From assembly GCA_946480695.1 (NCBI GenBank), contig CAMLKG010000067.1:1-5936 (forward strand): a stretch of DNA of 5,936 nucleotides. The letters run 5' to 3'. Made by a program: the position numbers and the translations under genes. Of this stretch, positions 1 to 5,936 are shown one piece after another. Each line of letters opens with the position of its first letter. Position 1 is the first letter of the stretch. Origin of the DNA: an uncultured Cellvibrio sp. Its GTDB lineage: Bacteria > Pseudomonadota > Gammaproteobacteria > Pseudomonadales > Cellvibrionaceae. The notes below the pieces were generated by a model. That model was not told the DNA's origin. It worked only from the letters and a program-made list of their open reading frames with translations, and did not search any database.

Positions 1-1952
1 CAGGTTTGGTGGATGCCCTGCTGCATCATTCGAAACAGCCGGTGAGCAATTTGAGTGTACTTCCGGCAGCCGAGCGGCAGCAATTGCTGGTGGACTGGAA
101 TGCGACAGCGGTGGCTTACCCGCAAGATAAATGTATCCATGAATTGTTTGAAGCACAGGCGGAGCGCACCCCGGATGCTCTGGCGGTTGTCTATGAAAAC
201 GAATCCCTGAGTTACTCCGTATTAAACCGGCGCGCGACAGAATTGGCTCATTACCTGTGCATGCAAGGAGTGTTGCCGAATACTTGTGTTGCACTGTGTT
301 TTGAACGTAGTACGGATATGATAATTGCGATACTTGCAACGCTCAAAGCCGGTGCTGCTTATGTTCCGCTTGATCCTGCATACCCACATGAACGCCTTGC
401 GTTTATGTTGACGGATTCGAATGCAAATTTATTGATTCATCATGCACAAACACGCTCGCTTGTAGAAAGTTTTACGCAAGTTGCCAAATTGATTTCCCTT
501 GATGATTATCAAAAAGGCGCATGTGATGTTGTCAGTCATCAATCTCTTTCCGCGCTAACTAAAGTCTCTCCCGCAGATTTGGCCTATGTAATTTATACCT
601 CCGGCTCAACAGGTGTGCCGAAAGGTATCGGTGTAGAGCACCACTCTGCTTGTAACCTCACCTGGGCCCTGGCCGATAAAATTTATGGTGGTGTTGAAAC
701 GCTGCAAGGCTTTCGCCTGGGCCTTAATGCTTCCTTTGCTTTCGACGCATCTGTTAAGCAAATCCTTATGCTTTGCCATGGTGTGAGTTTGCATTTAACA
801 CCGGCAGATGTTCGGCTGGATCCTGATCGTTTGGCGTTATATCTACAGTCTGCACGACTGGATGGAATGGATTTCACACCCGCCCAGCTTTCGCTGTTGC
901 TGGGTGCACACCCTGAACTTCAGTTGCCGTCATGTGTATTGGTGGGCGGGGACAAAATTGATAAACAGCTGTGGGCTACCTTGAGGAGCCACAGTGAAGC
1001 AGCAGTCTTCAATGTTTATGGCCCAACAGAAACCACGGTGGATGCGGTCTTTTGTAATTTGACTCAACAGGGTGATGAACCTGCTATCGGACGTCCATTG
1101 CCGAATATGCAAGTGTATCTCCTGGATGCCAATTTGCAGCCGGTGCCAGTAGGGGTTGCCGGCGAGTTATACATCGGTGGTGCTGGTGTGGCGAGAGGTT
1201 ATCTCAATCGTCCCGAGCTAACAGCAGAGCGTTTTTTGCGGGATCCTTTTGCAACAAGTGCCGATGCACGTTTTTATAAAACCGGCGATTTAGGGCGTTT
1301 CCGTGAGGATGGCACTATTGATTATCTGGGGCGCAATGATTTCCAGGTAAAAATTCGCGGTTTTCGAATTGAGCTGGGTGAGATTGAAGGGTGTCTTGCA
1401 GGCATTGATGGTGTGCAGGAGGCCGTCGTGGTTGCACGTGATAACGCAGGGGACAAGCGCCTGGTGGCTTATATCGTCATGGCACCGGATTGTATTTGCG
1501 ATGTGGCCTCGTTGCGCCAGGCCCTGGCCAAAGATCTTGCTGATTACATGATTCCAGGTGCATTTGTGCTGTTGGACCAGTTGCCCTTGACCCCCAATGG
1601 CAAGGTGGATCGCAAGGCGTTGCCGGAACCGGATATGTCAGATCTGCAACAGGAATATGTTGCACCACGCACCGCGACAGAACAGAAACTGTGCGAAATC
1701 TGGCAAGAGGTCCTTGGGGTAGAGCGGGTAGGTATTACTGATAACTTCTTCCTGTTGGGTGGCCATTCGCTGTTGGCAACCAGGCTGAGTGCAGCAGTTA
1801 AAAGTGCGCTTGAGTTAAGGTTGGAAATGAAAATCATTTTTTCGTGCAAAGATCTGGCTGAGATGGCATTGATAATTGATGAATTGAGTGCTTTTCAAAA
1901 AAATGATGCCTTGAAAAGGGATGTTGAAAGTCAAGTCGAGATCGAGTGGTAA
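1..1952 (+). CDS. NRPS, C-terminal part: end of upstream (C) domain/linker, glutamate-type A domain, T domain (5' truncated by window)
   Basis: This is the 3' end of a nonribosomal peptide synthetase. The frame is open to the window edge, and the TTG at 6 is only an internal codon, so the true start lies upstream. The first 40 or so residues resemble the helix and linker that follow a condensation domain. A complete adenylation domain follows, with core motifs in order: A1 (LSY, about 207), A2 (KAGAAYVPLDP, 345-377), A3 (YTSGSTGVPKG, 594-626), A4 (FDAS, from 741), A5 (NVYGPTETT, from 1011), A7 (YKTGD, from 1275), A8 (GRNDFQVKIRGFRIELGEIE, about 1330) and A10 (NGKVDR, from 1596). The carrier motif GGHSL has its phosphopantetheine serine at 1767. 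The enzyme should activate an amino acid with ATP and hold it as a thioester in the cytoplasm. There is no epimerisation or thioesterase domain; the chain goes to the next protein, whose start lies 2 bases after this TAA. The tail after the T domain is charged and ends in VEIEW. Confidence 0.96.
   Translation, partial: GLVDALLHHSKQPVSNLSVLPAAERQQLLVDWNATAVAYPQDKCIHELFEAQAERTPDALAVVYENESLSYSVLNRRATELAHYLCMQGVLPNTCVALCFERSTDMIIAILATLKAGAAYVPLDPAYPHERLAFMLTDSNANLLIHHAQTRSLVESFTQVAKLISLDDYQKGACDVVSHQSLSALTKVSPADLAYVIYTSGSTGVPKGIGVEHHSACNLTWALADKIYGGVETLQGFRLGLNASFAFDASVKQILMLCHGVSLHLTPADVRLDPDRLALYLQSARLDGMDFTPAQLSLLLGAHPELQLPSCVLVGGDKIDKQLWATLRSHSEAAVFNVYGPTETTVDAVFCNLTQQGDEPAIGRPLPNMQVYLLDANLQPVPVGVAGELYIGGAGVARGYLNRPELTAERFLRDPFATSADARFYKTGDLGRFREDGTIDYLGRNDFQVKIRGFRIELGEIEGCLAGIDGVQEAVVVARDNAGDKRLVAYIVMAPDCICDVASLRQALAKDLADYMIPGAFVLLDQLPLTPNGKVDRKALPEPDMSDLQQEYVAPRTATEQKLCEIWQEVLGVERVGITDNFFLLGGHSLLATRLSAAVKSALELRLEMKIIFSCKDLAEMALIIDELSAFQKNDALKRDVESQVEIEW
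130..1630 (+). other. Adenylation domain with glutamate specificity code (DAKDLGVVDK)
   Basis: I aligned the A4-A5 region by eye to the phenylalanine-activating domain of gramicidin synthetase GrsA. The ten pocket residues come from the codons at 744 (D, GrsA 235), 747 (A, 236), 756 (K, 239), 870 (D, 278), 939 (L, 299), 945 (G, 301), 1014 (V, 322), 1038 (V, 330), 1041 (D, 331) and 1602 (K, 517). From memory of the published Stachelhaus table, this string is the second glutamate code; the glutamine code differs only at 239 (Q instead of K). The lysine at 239 could pair with the substrate side-chain carboxylate. All catalytic motifs are present, including the A10 lysine, so the domain looks active. 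The substrate is inferred from the code; glutamine is the main alternative. Confidence 0.85.
1660..1860 (+). other. Thiolation (peptidyl carrier) domain of the first NRPS
   Basis: This four-helix carrier segment begins near the YVAP linker and carries the signature TDNFFLLGGHSLLATRL, with the serine at 1767 as the expected site of 4'-phosphopantetheine attachment. It would hold the glutamyl or peptidyl-glutamyl thioester. Its linker and core closely resemble the carrier domain of the next protein (YVAP-x-T-x-x-E, LCE-x-W, LGVE, TDNFF, GG-x-SLLATRL), so the two modules probably share carrier-domain ancestry. Confidence 0.93.
1862..1949 (+). other. C-terminal docking tail of the first NRPS
   Basis: About 29 residues follow the carrier domain to the stop. 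They are rich in charged residues and finish with VESQVEIEW. The next protein starts with a TubC-type docking domain, and that family is known to receive a short C-terminal motif of the upstream partner against its beta-hairpin. The last six residues (QVEIEW) parallel the last six of the next protein (EVELSI), which also hands over to a TubC-type start. The role is inferred from this pairing; no family match is claimed for the tail. Confidence 0.6.
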
Positions 1953-1957
1953 AAATG
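1941..1957 (+). promoter_or_regulatory. Translational coupling junction: stop TAA 1950-1952, start ATG 1955
   Basis: The second gene starts 2 bases after the stop of the first. The only Shine-Dalgarno-like bases are a weak GAGTGG just upstream (1944-1949). With so little spacing, ribosomes finishing gene 1 probably re-initiate here, which would keep the two partners near equal amounts. An in-frame GTG at 1946 would add three residues (MVK), but ATG 1955 puts the start of the docking domain where the equivalent domain of the third gene starts. Confidence 0.65.
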
Positions 1958-2110
1958 AAAATCGTTGATGTTATAAAAGTACTTTCTGATGCAAATATAT
2001 ATGTTTTTCTTGAAGAGGGGAAACTTAAAACCAGATCCAGAGAAAATACACTAACAGCTGACTTGATTGAACTTATAAAAAACAACAAGCAAGAACTATT
2101 GGATTATCTG
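1955..2110 (+). other. TubC-type N-terminal docking domain (gene 2)
   Basis: The first 52 or so residues have the helix, beta-hairpin, helix layout of the TubC N-terminal docking family: MKIVDVIKVLSDANIYVFLE, then a basic hairpin (KLKTRS), then a helix ending NKQELLDYL. These domains recognise the C-terminal tail of the preceding synthetase and set the order of proteins in NRPS and PKS lines. The start of the third gene has the same pattern (VLEILNILSEQGIKISLDE, then KPEIISFL), which supports both calls and ATG 1955 as the start. Confidence 0.85.
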
Positions 2111-5100
2111 TCGCGACATGAAAATACAATCCTGTTCAACGAGGGCGTAATAACTCCTTACGACGGGACAGAGGTAGTCTTGTCATTTAGTCAGCAGCGT
2201 TATTGGTTAATGGATCAGATTGAAAGTAATATCGGGCAGCGCAATCTGTTGTTTGCGCTTAAATTGTCTGGCGAGCTTGACTTGAATGTATTGGATCGGG
2301 TGTTTTCATCACTGGTTGATCGCCATCATGTATTACGAACTCAGTTTTTGTGCAATGAAAAAGATAACCCTATACAATTAATTCGTGAGGAATATGATTT
2401 TGCTGTCGTAAAAAAAGACTTTTCGAAATTGGCCATTGCTGATCGTGAACGTGCTATTGCCCAGGTTATTGACGAGGAACATACTCGCCGTTTTGATCTG
2501 AATACGGATCTAATGTTGCGAGTTAAACTTCTGCACATTGAATCTAAACAGTATATTTTGATTGTAACTATTCATCATATTGCCGCTGATGGTTGGTCGG
2601 TTGGAATTTTGATTGATGAATTTGCCCGGCTTTATGAGGCATATAAGCTTTCATTGGAAAATCCGCTGGTTCCGTTAGGGATAAAATATGCAGATTATGC
2701 GCATTGGCAACACAAGCAAGTAAATGAGCGAAAAGCGGGGGCCTTGGATTTCTGGCGCGGTGAGTTACTGGGCGCGCCGGAAAAAATTAGTTTGCCTGCT
2801 GATTATATTTCCCGTAGCGCGGAGTTGAGTGTAGCTGGCATTTCCAGGGTTACTATTGAGCGAACTTTAATTGATCAGTTTAAAAATAAATTATTTGCTA
2901 GCAAAGGTACTTTATTTGCGGGTTTGTTTGCCAGTTTAAATGTTTTGTTTTACAGATGGTGTGCACAGCAGGATCTGGTTGTTGGTGTGGTCGATGCGGG
3001 CAGGGATCGTAAGGAAGTAGAGCGGGTCGTTGGTTGTTTTGTGAATGCCTTGGCGATTAGAACGAAAATTCCGGCTTTCGAGAGTTTGGGTGATCTTCTC
3101 GAAAATGTTTGTGCTCATTTGTTGGATGTTGCAGAGCACAAATTTTTCCCCTTTGAAAAAGTTGTAGCAGAGTTAAATCCGGATAGGGTTGATTCAACAA
3201 ATCCTTTTTTTAATGTTGCTTTATTGTTGCAAAACTTTGCTGATTCAAGTTGGGATATTAAGGATTTGCACGTTGATGTTTTGCCCACCTTAAAATCCAA
3301 AGCCTTTCTTGATCTACGTTTTGTTGCTTGGGAAACTGAGCAAGGGCTAATTGTTGAGTGTGAGTATCGCGAAGAGCTTTTTTCAGCTCGAACTATTGAT
3401 GCTTTACTTGATTCGTATCGCATGGTGGTTGAACAGTTTGTTAATTGCGAACAACGAACTATAGACGCAGTGGAAATTTCCAACGATCTTTTTCTTCAAG
3501 CTCAGTCGATAAATTATCGGAAAAAGACAATTTGCGCAGTGGGGACTTTTACGCTTGATCCATTGATTGATAGCTTCGAGTTTTTGCAAAAAAAATTATC
3601 ACTGCATGCCTCCCTGGATTTGCTACCTTTTCAGCAGGTTTTTCAACAGTTATTGGATTCAAACAGTGAATTTCGAAAAAATAAAAATGGATTCAATATT
3701 ATTTTGTTAGGTCTGCATGATTGGTTAGGTGTTGGGGATTTTATCCAGCAAGGAAAAAATCTGCATGATGGGGTACATCGCTTTTGCTCGGCATTGGATG
3801 AGGTTCAACGAATTTCCTCTGTGCCTTATATAGTGATGCTTTGCCCTTCCAGTGCGCAAATATGCGGTTCAGATCAATTATTTAGTACTGTTGATGCGTT
3901 ACACAAAAAAATAGCGGAACAATTTTCTGGTTCTTCCAAAGTTAAAGTGGTAATGCCTGCTGAGTTGGTGGATGGTGTCGATGATTGTTTTGACTATGAA
4001 ACCTATCGGCTAGCTCATATACCATACACTCCCATTTTCTACTCCGCACTGATGAGCCGAGCGCTGAGGGCATTCAACGCTGCTGATAGCAAACCTTACA
4101 AGGTTATTGTTTTGGATTGTGACAATACCATATGGAAAGGAGTGTGCGCGGAAGATGGGCCATTGGGTGTAGTCGTTTCGGCAGAATATTTATACCTACA
4201 AAAGTTTGTGGTCGAGTTGCAGGAGAAGGGATTTTTATTATGTTTGTGCAGTAAAAATGAGGAGGGAGACGTCTGGGCGGTGTTTGATGAAAATAATAAT
4301 ATGCATATCAAACGCGAGCACATTATTGCATCCAGAATTAATTGGGAGCCAAAATGGAAAAATATTTACTCTATTGCTGATGAACTAAATCTCGGTCTGG
4401 AGAGTATTATATTCATTGACGATGACTTGTCTCAATGCTTGGAAATGCGCATGCATTGCCCGGATGTACTGACCATCCAATTGCCAGCGGCAGTTGATAA
4501 GATCCCAAAAGCTTTACGTAATATTTGGGCTTTCGATGTTGAGCAGGCTGCACTCGCAGGGAATAGAACTGCTCTTTATGAACAGCAAAACAAGAGAAAG
4601 CAATTTCTTATCGAACATAAAGGAAGTCGACAAGATTTTTTAGAGTCTTTAGGTGTTAATATCGATGTTAAAACACTGTCGGCTGATAATTGTGATCGAG
4701 CGGTCGAGTTGCTTGCGCGCACTAATCAATTTAATTTGAATGGATATTTGGTCAATAAGTCTGACTTGCTGGAGGGGCTTGATAATTATATTTTTGGGGT
4801 TACCGCCAGGGTTGAGGATCGCTTTGGTGATTATGGTCTTGTGGGTCTTGTTCTGTTTACTTATAAAAATAATAACTTGTCTGTACTTAATATGGTTTTA
4901 AGTTGTCGGGCACTGGGACGCGGAGTTGAATACGAGCTTTTAAAGGCCGTTGCTGCTGTCGCCTTTGAAAGAAATATCACTGGTATCGAATGGTCTTTTG
5001 TACCCTCTGCACGCAATACTCCTGTGTTTAATTTTTTGAGCCAACTGTATGGCGCTATTGCTCATGCTGAACCGGCCAGCTTAATCCCAAATCGTAAAAG

Positions 5101-5668
5101 TTATTGCTGCTTGCAAGCAGAGAGCATATTAAACCTGAATTATCTGGATATTTTAGAGAGAGAGGATTCAGCCCAACAGCTGCCTGCTCTTGAATCCCAT
5201 GCGGGAAGCGACGGTTCTCTTAATGTATTGCCAGGGCGATGGTTGTCATCTGCGCAATATAATCAAATTTTTATATGGATGAATGATTTTGATTTGTTCC
5301 ATCAATCCGTTGAAGATTGGGCTCGTGACAGTATTGCTTCACAGCGAGTGTCAGAGCAACAAAATTATGTTGCACCAGTTACCAATATTGAAAAGCGTTT
5401 GTGTGAGCTGTGGGGAGATATTCTTGGTGTTGAATCGATTGGTGTTACGGATAATTTTTTTAAAATGGGTGGAAACTCCCTGCTTGCAACGCGTTTGATA
5501 GCAAATATCAATCGATCTTTTGATATGAATTTACAGTTAAATTTATTGTTTAGTGCCCAGACGATATCCGCTTTGGCGGTGTTGATTGAGAACAATCAAA
5601 TAATTGCAAGGATGGCTCTGGATAAGGAAGCTGCCTTGTTACCAAATGAGGTGGAATTATCAATATGA
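1955..5668 (+). CDS. NRPS with TubC docking - condensation - FkbH-like HAD - thiolation architecture (A-domain-less module)
   Basis: This complete 1237-residue protein (from ATG 1955) is an assembly-line module whose adenylation domain is replaced by an FkbH-like domain. Domains in order: TubC-type docking (about 1-52); condensation (about 72-505; HHIAADGWS at 207-215 with intact HHxxxDG); FkbH N-terminal region (about 525-690); HAD phosphatase core (about 715-830, nucleophile D721); GNAT-like C-terminal part (to about 1050); an unassigned linker of about 85 residues; and a carrier domain (about 1138-1210, S1175 in GGNSL). FkbH proteins load a C3 acid from 1,3-bisphosphoglycerate on carriers, so this module probably self-loads glyceryl or a related hydroxy acid and condenses it with the chain delivered by the upstream glutamate module. 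The bond would be an ester, which is an inference. It sits in a tight operon, 2 bases after gene 1 and overlapping gene 3 by ATGA. The base composition is more AT-rich than the upstream A domain. Domain identity is firm; substrate and product are predictions. Confidence 0.95.
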   Translation: MKIVDVIKVLSDANIYVFLEEGKLKTRSRENTLTADLIELIKNNKQELLDYLSRHENTILFNEGVITPYDGTEVVLSFSQQRYWLMDQIESNIGQRNLLFALKLSGELDLNVLDRVFSSLVDRHHVLRTQFLCNEKDNPIQLIREEYDFAVVKKDFSKLAIADRERAIAQVIDEEHTRRFDLNTDLMLRVKLLHIESKQYILIVTIHHIAADGWSVGILIDEFARLYEAYKLSLENPLVPLGIKYADYAHWQHKQVNERKAGALDFWRGELLGAPEKISLPADYISRSAELSVAGISRVTIERTLIDQFKNKLFASKGTLFAGLFASLNVLFYRWCAQQDLVVGVVDAGRDRKEVERVVGCFVNALAIRTKIPAFESLGDLLENVCAHLLDVAEHKFFPFEKVVAELNPDRVDSTNPFFNVALLLQNFADSSWDIKDLHVDVLPTLKSKAFLDLRFVAWETEQGLIVECEYREELFSARTIDALLDSYRMVVEQFVNCEQRTIDAVEISNDLFLQAQSINYRKKTICAVGTFTLDPLIDSFEFLQKKLSLHASLDLLPFQQVFQQLLDSNSEFRKNKNGFNIILLGLHDWLGVGDFIQQGKNLHDGVHRFCSALDEVQRISSVPYIVMLCPSSAQICGSDQLFSTVDALHKKIAEQFSGSSKVKVVMPAELVDGVDDCFDYETYRLAHIPYTPIFYSALMSRALRAFNAADSKPYKVIVLDCDNTIWKGVCAEDGPLGVVVSAEYLYLQKFVVELQEKGFLLCLCSKNEEGDVWAVFDENNNMHIKREHIIASRINWEPKWKNIYSIADELNLGLESIIFIDDDLSQCLEMRMHCPDVLTIQLPAAVDKIPKALRNIWAFDVEQAALAGNRTALYEQQNKRKQFLIEHKGSRQDFLESLGVNIDVKTLSADNCDRAVELLARTNQFNLNGYLVNKSDLLEGLDNYIFGVTARVEDRFGDYGLVGLVLFTYKNNNLSVLNMVLSCRALGRGVEYELLKAVAAVAFERNITGIEWSFVPSARNTPVFNFLSQLYGAIAHAEPASLIPNRKSYCCLQAESILNLNYLDILEREDSAQQLPALESHAGSDGSLNVLPGRWLSSAQYNQIFIWMNDFDLFHQSVEDWARDSIASQRVSEQQNYVAPVTNIEKRLCELWGDILGVESIGVTDNFFKMGGNSLLATRLIANINRSFDMNLQLNLLFSAQTISALAVLIENNQIIARMALDKEAALLPNEVELSI
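2168..3470 (+). other. Condensation domain, LCL-like, acting before the FkbH unit
   Basis: Motifs seen, numbered from ATG 1955: C1 LSFSQQRYWLMDQIE (76-90), C2 RHHVLRT (123-129), C3 HHIAADGWS (207-215; catalytic His is H208, with D212), C4 YADYAHW (245-251), C5 VVGCFVNALA (358-367), C6 HKFFPFE (395-401), C7 STNPFFNV (414-421). The HHxxxDG-W-S form and the lack of an epimerisation domain upstream fit an LCL condensation domain. It is not a cyclisation domain, which would have DxxxxD in place of HHxxxDG. All catalytic residues are present, so it should be active. Its acceptor would be the unit loaded by the following FkbH domain, so it would have to use a hydroxyl nucleophile. Confidence 0.92.
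3527..5104 (+). other. FkbH-like domain (HAD-IIIC phosphatase / C3-unit loading) embedded in the NRPS
   Basis: This domain spans about residues 525-1050. The N-terminal region shows family features such as LLPFQQVFQQLLD (556-568) and GFNIILLGLHDW (579-590). The HAD core has motif I LDCDNTIWKGV with nucleophile D721 and acid/base D723, motif II CSKNEE with S766, motif III NWEPK with K800, and motif IV FIDDD with D822 and D823. The C-terminal part has TNQFN (923-927), DRFGDYG (955-961) and SCRALGRGVE (983-992). FkbH-family enzymes (FK520, oxazolomycin OzmB, tetronate pathways, the bryostatin BryA loading module) form glyceryl- or lactyl-carrier thioesters. Cysteines at 765 and 984 lie in conserved motifs, and either might hold the acyl intermediate. 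Two departures from the usual consensus are WKGV for WGGV and DDDLSQ for DDNPxE. Catalytic residues are otherwise intact. Confidence 0.9.
5105..5365 (+). other. Unassigned linker between FkbH-like and thiolation domains
   Basis: About 87 residues lie between the end of recognisable FkbH sequence and the carrier-domain linker at YVAP. They include an aromatic-rich, probably helical part (YNQIFIWMNDFDLFHQ, then VEDWARD). I recognise no domain. It could be the end of the FkbH fold, a structural linker, or a remnant of recombination where an A domain was replaced. Confidence 0.4.
5366..5590 (+). other. Thiolation domain of the FkbH module (GGNS variant)
   Basis: The carrier signature is TDNFFKMGGNSLLATRL, with the phosphopantetheine serine at 5477-5479 (S1175). 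The residue before the serine is Asn rather than the His of the upstream carrier. The domain should hold the unit loaded by the FkbH domain and then the extended chain. Its linker and core are near matches of the upstream carrier domain, so it is NRPS-type and not a PKS-type ACP, although FkbH partners are often discrete ACPs. Confidence 0.93.
5591..5665 (+). other. C-terminal docking tail of the FkbH-module protein
   Basis: About 25 residues follow the carrier domain and end PNEVELSI. The final six residues match the pattern at the end of the first protein (EVELSI against QVEIEW: acidic, Val, Glu, Ile/Leu). As the third protein begins with a TubC-type docking domain, this tail is the likely partner. 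The role is inferred. Confidence 0.6.
5648..5668 (+). promoter_or_regulatory. Ribosome binding site GAGGTGG and ATGA start/stop overlap for gene 3
   Basis: The third gene starts at ATG 5665, overlapping the TGA (5666-5668) that ends gene 2. A good Shine-Dalgarno core GAGGTG at 5648-5653, inside gene 2, lies 11 bases before the ATG. Overlap plus this site indicates translational coupling with independent ribosome recruitment, stronger than at the first junction. Confidence 0.8.
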
Positions 5669-5936
5669 ATCAAGTTTTAGAGATACTGAATATCCTGTCA
5701 GAGCAGGGAATTAAAATCAGCTTGGATGAAAATGCGAATTTATTACTGCGTGGCGATAAGAAAAACTTAAATAGCGCATTGGTTGCTTCAATTAAAGAAT
5801 TGAAGCCAGAAATTATTTCTTTTTTGCAAGCGAATCAACTCAATAAACGCAATCTGATCCTGCCAGCAACACGCGACAGTAAAATCCCGCTGTCATACGC
5901 CCAACAAAGTTTATGGTTATTGGATCAGATCAATGA
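5665..5936 (+). CDS. NRPS, N-terminal part: TubC-type docking domain and start of a condensation domain (3' truncated by window)
   Basis: The frame from ATG 5665 is open to the window end (90 full codons). Residues 1 to about 55 form a TubC-type docking domain: MNQVLEILNILSEQGIKIS, a hairpin with LLLRGDKK, then a helix with KPEIISFLQ. After a short linker comes PLSYAQQSLWLLDQIN, the C1 motif of a condensation domain, at about residues 74-89. The order of docking domain, linker and C1 is the same as in gene 2, so this is the next protein of the line. It would accept the chain from the FkbH-module carrier and join it to the next building block, which cannot be known here. The start is firm because of the ATGA overlap, the GAGGTGG site and the docking-domain alignment. 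Confidence 0.93.
   Translation, partial: MNQVLEILNILSEQGIKISLDENANLLLRGDKKNLNSALVASIKELKPEIISFLQANQLNKRNLILPATRDSKIPLSYAQQSLWLLDQIN

Follow-up and report, generated by a model that had tools for sequence, protein, structure and literature searches.

The 5,936-nucleotide stretch of DNA from an uncultured Cellvibrio sp. that was analysed here (the window) carries the gene of a docked nonribosomal peptide synthetase (NRPS) elongation module, in which an FkbH domain occupies the place of the adenylation (A) domain. The module is real and intact and, judged from its sequence, is probably functional and glycerate-inserting. It is likely that the FkbH domain loads D-glyceryl onto the carrier (T) domain, that the condensation (C) domain esterifies an upstream chain with a predicted L-Glu end, and that the next docked protein continues the line. 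The window offers a well-marked case of a peptide line that takes a building block directly from glycolysis and probably has an ester in its backbone, and its compact docked one-module protein would be suited to biochemical studies of ester-forming C domains and of loading by FkbH. The mid-line C-FkbH-T architecture itself is already known from natural products of myxobacteria: the interest lies in a sparsely sampled, divergent lineage and in the product, which may be a new depsipeptide.

Gene layout and domain composition

Three closely spaced genes are found on the + strand of the window, and the biosynthetic cluster extends beyond both of its ends. The first gene (3..1952) encodes the C-terminal part of an NRPS protein, with an A domain (residues 49-534) and a T domain (residues 561-622, Ser at nt 1767-1769), both assigned with Pfam and NCBIfam. 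The A domain is of the amino-acid type (TIGR01733, 413.5 bits for a cut-off of 317.4). Its pocket residues, taken by motif position, read DAKDLGVVDK (the fourth, position 278, was read by eye from the sequence stretch), which we take to be the classical Glu code. The upstream chain probably ends in Glu and, because no epimerisation (E) domain was found after A-T in this protein, L-Glu is expected.

The second gene (1955..5668, +; ORF, Pfam and NCBIfam) is an intact reading frame of 1237 codons, from the ATG at 1955 to the stop at 5666-5668. Its product starts with a TubC_N docking domain (residues 3-53, 1961..2113, Pfam E 3.3e-9), followed by a Condensation domain (residues 73-508, 2171..3478, Pfam E 3.8e-82) with the motif HHIAADG (second His at nt 2576-2578). 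The T domain lies at residues 1148-1208 (5396..5578, Pfam PP-binding E 1.4e-13) and carries Ser1175 (nt 5477-5479); the HHxxxDG motif and the carrier Ser are both intact. Between the C and T domains, the NCBIfam model TIGR01686 (FkbH) matched residues 716-1031 with 246.9 bits (cut-off 146.65) and the HAD-IIIC model scored 59.1 bits (cut-off 35.75). Pfam and NCBIfam reported no AMP-binding or amino-acid adenylation domain and no tailoring domain in the 1237-aa protein. These searches bore out the original prediction of a full FkbH-like HAD domain between an intact C domain and a carrier domain, with no A domain: within residues 525-1050, on which that prediction turned, both models matched above cut-off. 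The module, in which FkbH immediately follows C and precedes T and no A domain is present, has the make-up of a C-FkbH-T glycerate module of the cystomanamide type. In Pfam, the sole match of the FkbH part was to the generic Hydrolase family and was sub-threshold (17.8 versus 26.4 bits), so that a Pfam-only search would miss its nature.

The third gene (5665..5936, +) has its ATG at 5665, overlapping the stop of the docking-C-FkbH-T gene. Its product starts with TubC_N (29.4 bits, cut-off 26), followed by sequence resembling the beginning of a C domain, with no Pfam Condensation match in the 90 residues lying inside the window. The module had been expected to sit mid-line, after a C domain and ahead of another C-containing protein: the C domain and the upstream A-T are in place, and downstream the visible residues show a docking domain and no Condensation hit, a C domain there being suggested by how the last of them read. 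Concerning placement between amino-acid-activating modules, the upstream one is present and the downstream protein is visible for 90 residues only. The first two proteins have alike C-terminal tails (VEIEW and VELSI) and each next protein starts with TubC_N, a pattern that fits docking in gene order.

The G+C content of the A domain (window 3-1640) is 50%, versus 39-42% for the domains of the docking-C-FkbH-T gene and 31% for the docking domain. A milder step was seen in the Motilimonas locus (A-T 47%, C and FkbH 42%). The step between the A domain and the docking-C-FkbH-T gene may be a trace of module exchange.

Fold and conserved residues of the FkbH domain

Residues 522-1044 (523 aa) were modelled with AlphaFold2 from a 26-row alignment (mean pLDDT 88.5, pTM 0.69). 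The predicted fold most closely resembled 3slr (BF1531, N-terminal part including the phosphatase domain, E 2.1e-21) and resembled many GNAT acyltransferases more weakly (E near 1e-5). Because the profile match to 3slr spans positions 30-350 of 524, the GNAT match was assigned to the last third of the region. Three parts can be delimited on the + strand: an N-terminal extension (3518..4099, approximate bounds, from the 3slr match), which corresponds to the extension named NEX in a 2025 malleicyprol paper (PMC12304814); a HAD-IIIC phosphatase part (4100..4540, approximate bounds, from NCBIfam and the alignment) containing Asp721, Asp723, Lys800, Asp822 and Asp823; and a putative acyltransferase part (4541..5047), positioned from the extent of TIGR01686 to residue 1031 and the GNAT fold matches, with Cys984 at nt 4904-4906.

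For the analysis of conserved residues, 95 FkbH domains were aligned, leaving out L085 and L088-L092, which repeat other loci of the set. Invariant columns were scored on 91 rows, the window, L005, L074 and L017 being set aside. In this set, composed of the best matches to the window and not of a random sample, 27 columns are identical in 91/91 domains and the window keeps 27/27. D721, D723, K800, D822, D823 and C984 are among them, and C984 is the sole fully invariant cysteine of the alignment. The first five are presumably the HAD catalytic positions, and C984 is taken to be the glyceryl-carrying cysteine of the acyltransferase part. Since all the invariant columns are kept, the FkbH domain should be catalytically competent. 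The assignment of the middle region to a generic HAD phosphatase only was rejected on the basis of TIGR01686, the model and the conserved residues.

Proposed ester formation and alternative explanations

A tree was built from 100 C domains with a minimum length of 380 residues, among which 22 precede FkbH; shorter domains were left out, including those before FkbH in L006 and L017. The C and FkbH trees are quick trees with SH-aLRT support only, and several rows have long branches or an odd composition, L074 above all. The C domain of the window falls in a nine-row group (SH-aLRT 100) spread over Pseudomonadota, Acidobacteriota, Verrucomicrobiota, Bacteroidota and Cyanobacteriota. Eight of the nine rows precede FkbH, and HHxxxDG is present in all eight; the ninth, from the last protein of the Crocosphaera locus (L013), precedes an A domain. 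The other 14 FkbH-linked C domains are placed elsewhere in the tree. A single origin for all the C domains before FkbH was unsupported, as this label requires 9 changes on the tree (shuffled mean 20.1). The last Gly of HHxxxDG is present in the window and missing in 6/22 FkbH-linked C domains. Given the multiple origins and the Gly losses, no ester-specific signature of FkbH-linked C domains was found in the HHxxxDG motif or the C tree. The grouping is in keeping with selection or co-inheritance for the same reaction and is no proof of ester formation.

In the proposed mechanism, the FkbH domain would take D-1,3-bisphosphoglycerate (or 3-phosphoglycerate) and move the glyceryl via the cysteine of its acyltransferase part, and the HAD part would remove the phosphate, leaving D-glyceryl on the pantetheine of the T domain (Ser1175). 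An ester would then be formed by the C domain between the upstream chain, whose predicted L-Glu end is carried on the A-T protein, and one of the hydroxyls of the glyceryl; the following docked protein would continue with this depsipeptide. This scheme builds on the observed domain order, retained conserved residues, close gene spacing and docking domains; the substrate, the role of the cysteine, the ester bond, the Glu and the colinearity with gene order are its inferred elements. Either phosphoglycerate could be the donor, because the vioprolide FkbH domain has reportedly been shown to activate 3-phosphoglycerate (PMC10099666). The originally predicted incorporation of a C3 acid from glycolysis within the chain agrees with the domain evidence and the cystomanamide precedent.

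The substrate could nevertheless differ, because the window deviates in 22 (one a gap) of the 112 columns that are at least 85% conserved in the 91 other domains, the changes including S801W, E827Q, R932L and R933V. G732A, S801W, E827Q, V831M, Q918E and T920L are common to the window and both Motilimonas proteins, R932 and R933 are replaced in the window and in L005, and the FkbH tree (86 rows) separates the window, L005 and L074 from the other 83 on a branch of their own (SH-aLRT 99, with a very long branch for L074). An active FkbH domain that loads a related acid other than glycerate, owing to its altered HAD and acyltransferase residues, would account for these features, but all 27 invariant columns are kept and divergence alone could produce the residue changes, and we regard it as quite unlikely. 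Very unlikely, on the same alignment, is the reading that the window and Motilimonas make up a sub-lineage whose conserved residues are altered in both catalytic parts and whose substrate is not D-glycerate but another C3 or related phospho-acid; if true, this would be a so far undescribed building block for NRPSs.

Module skipping is known in NRPS lines and the lineage is divergent, as would suit an inactive FkbH domain with the T domain skipped or charged in trans; with the frame intact and the invariant residues and carrier Ser kept, such inactivity is highly improbable. Compatible with the preferred mechanism, and in itself rather unlikely, is the oxidation, methylation or sulfation of the loaded glyceryl by enzymes encoded beyond the window, which would leave a final unit other than plain glycerate: methylation and sulfation are described for aeruginosin-type loading modules (PMC10143770), C-methylation has been proposed for corramycin (PMC10099666) and alteration of the loaded unit is likewise on record for hydroxymalonyl/methoxymalonyl-ACP pathways (PMC7489565), whereas the 1237-aa protein is devoid of any reported tailoring domain.

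Published precedents and genomic relatives

Loading of D-glyceryl followed by ester formation, the mechanism preferred here, has published parallels. NRPS FkbH domains are described as replacing A domains; in the biosynthesis of cystomanamide and vioprolide the glyceryl that they load comes from 1,3-bisphosphoglycerate, and an ester-bond-forming C domain accompanies FkbH in the vioprolide line (PMC8949500). The cystomanamide synthetase of Cystobacter fuscus has five modules (chain Asn-Asn-Phe-GA-Tyr), the fourth of which is C-FkbH-PCP, like the module in the window, and is located between amino-acid modules; analogue B has an added Tyr and glyceric acid (PMC9581180). Compared by architecture, the module preceding this one in cystomanamide synthetase has an E domain at its end, whereas the upstream protein of the window is A-T without E. 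For corramycin and vioprolide, the order FAAL-ACP-C-HAD-T is given (PMC10099666): module 2 of VioA and ComK is C-FkbH-T, like the module in the window, but by architecture their donor is a fatty acid on FAAL-ACP and that of the window is an aminoacyl or peptidyl chain, no FAAL-ACP preceding the window module (its upstream A domain is of the amino-acid type). In a seven-module Flavobacterium line, an FkbH-like domain replaces the A domain of module 5 (PMC11298585), and aeruginosin-type lines have FkbH loading modules (PMC10143770, PMC13122637). In view of the cystomanamide, Flavobacterium and genomic precedents, mid-line FkbH placement is not new. The novelty implied in the original prediction is contradicted by lines already in print (PMC9581180, PMC8949500, PMC11298585); its proviso that proteins of this make-up could already be on record was well placed, considering these published cases and the genome loci described below.

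One genome per species was scanned with the FkbH alignment as query: at least 553 relatives were found and the best 80 loci were kept. Locus architectures were scored with HMMs built from the C, A, T and FkbH domains of the window itself, to which other domains are invisible and with which fatty acyl ligases also score as A. By this scoring, the domain detected closest upstream of FkbH within its frame is C in 21 of the best 80 loci, and also in 1/4 plasmid loci (L003). The C-to-FkbH gap is at most 35 residues in 19/21 loci (301 in L017 and 520 in L083). A-T precedes C on the same protein in 7/21 (L005, L011, L016, L052, L058, L074 and L083) and is located on a neighbouring protein in L013 and L026. 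The three A domains checked (L011, L013 and L052) pass as amino-acid type; the 'A' of L020 is a fatty acyl-AMP ligase (FAAL models win; TIGR01733 163.3), in a vioprolide-like plan.

The architecture search suggested earlier for Condensation-FkbH-PCP proteins returned matches, including a Crocosphaera docking-C-FkbH-T protein (L013 8364-12080, identical to P0118, 1238 aa) with the same Pfam set and size as that of the window. It is a one-module protein between C-A-T proteins, and the locus is the closest parallel in plan among the loci kept (C-A-T, C-A-T, docking-C-FkbH-T, C-A-T-C, C-A-T); its identity to the window is 38% (part searched), and its C domain belongs to another C-tree group and reads HHIVCDE. 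The closest relative found was the NRPS of the gammaproteobacterium Motilimonas pumila (L005, P0002), with ~51% identity in the FkbH part and 46% in the C domain. This protein unites A-T-C-FkbH-T and a subsequent epimerisation-like domain in a single chain, whereas A-T and C-FkbH-T are on separate proteins in the window.

For the protein database, residues 525-950 were used as query and the 7996 candidates with the most words in common were scored: 946 proteins passed E 1e-40. PF00668 and PF00550 occur together, in whichever order, in 23 of the 120 matches listed, and TubC_N is present as well in 4 of these 23; the window is counted in both figures. With the N-terminal extension (residues 525-690), 2/998 candidates passed 1e-10: the window and Motilimonas pumila. 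At E 1e-60, matches were obtained in 2/394 sampled genomes of the order of M. pumila, both of them already-known Motilimonas, and in 7/369 sampled genomes of its class, one being M. pumila; the 6 other class genomes hold 7 loci (~4.5 kb each seen), and C precedes FkbH in L093, L095 and L099. At the level of these sequence searches, the window and Motilimonas are a sparsely sampled, divergent FkbH lineage. No DNA near-matches of the window were found in E. coli genomes or in plasmids, a genome-contig scan with the whole 1237-aa protein gave no relative, and a viral-contig scan with a single FkbH sequence gave no match; phage records contained two matches of 26-27% identity, covering 51% and 66% of the query.

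Several features of the relatives were recorded. After FkbH-T, both Motilimonas (L005 ~3935-5317) and Catenovulum (L017 8441-13507, residues ~1240-1680) have an epimerisation-like domain (TIGR01720 score below its cut-off), which would act on a glyceryl-bound chain. In the same Catenovulum protein, a Glyoxalase_4 domain (methylmalonyl-CoA epimerase-like, residues 226-334) lies inside the C-to-FkbH gap; four of the listed proteins (P0009, P0015, P0018 and P0070) combine PF13669 with C and carrier domains. The C domain before FkbH in L017 is split over the overlapping frames 6627-8459 and 8441-13510, by either a frameshift or a split gene. An insert of ~190-220 residues between the N-terminal piece and the rest of FkbH was seen in 14 loci (L036, L040, L043, L044, L047, L051, L060, L061, L063, L064, L065, L067, L070 and L072); 13 of the 14 are without a C domain before FkbH and 9 are cyanobacterial. 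Finally, Aquimarina (L061 5558-14542) has two consecutive C-FkbH-T proteins, as though the line incorporated one glyceryl unit directly after another.
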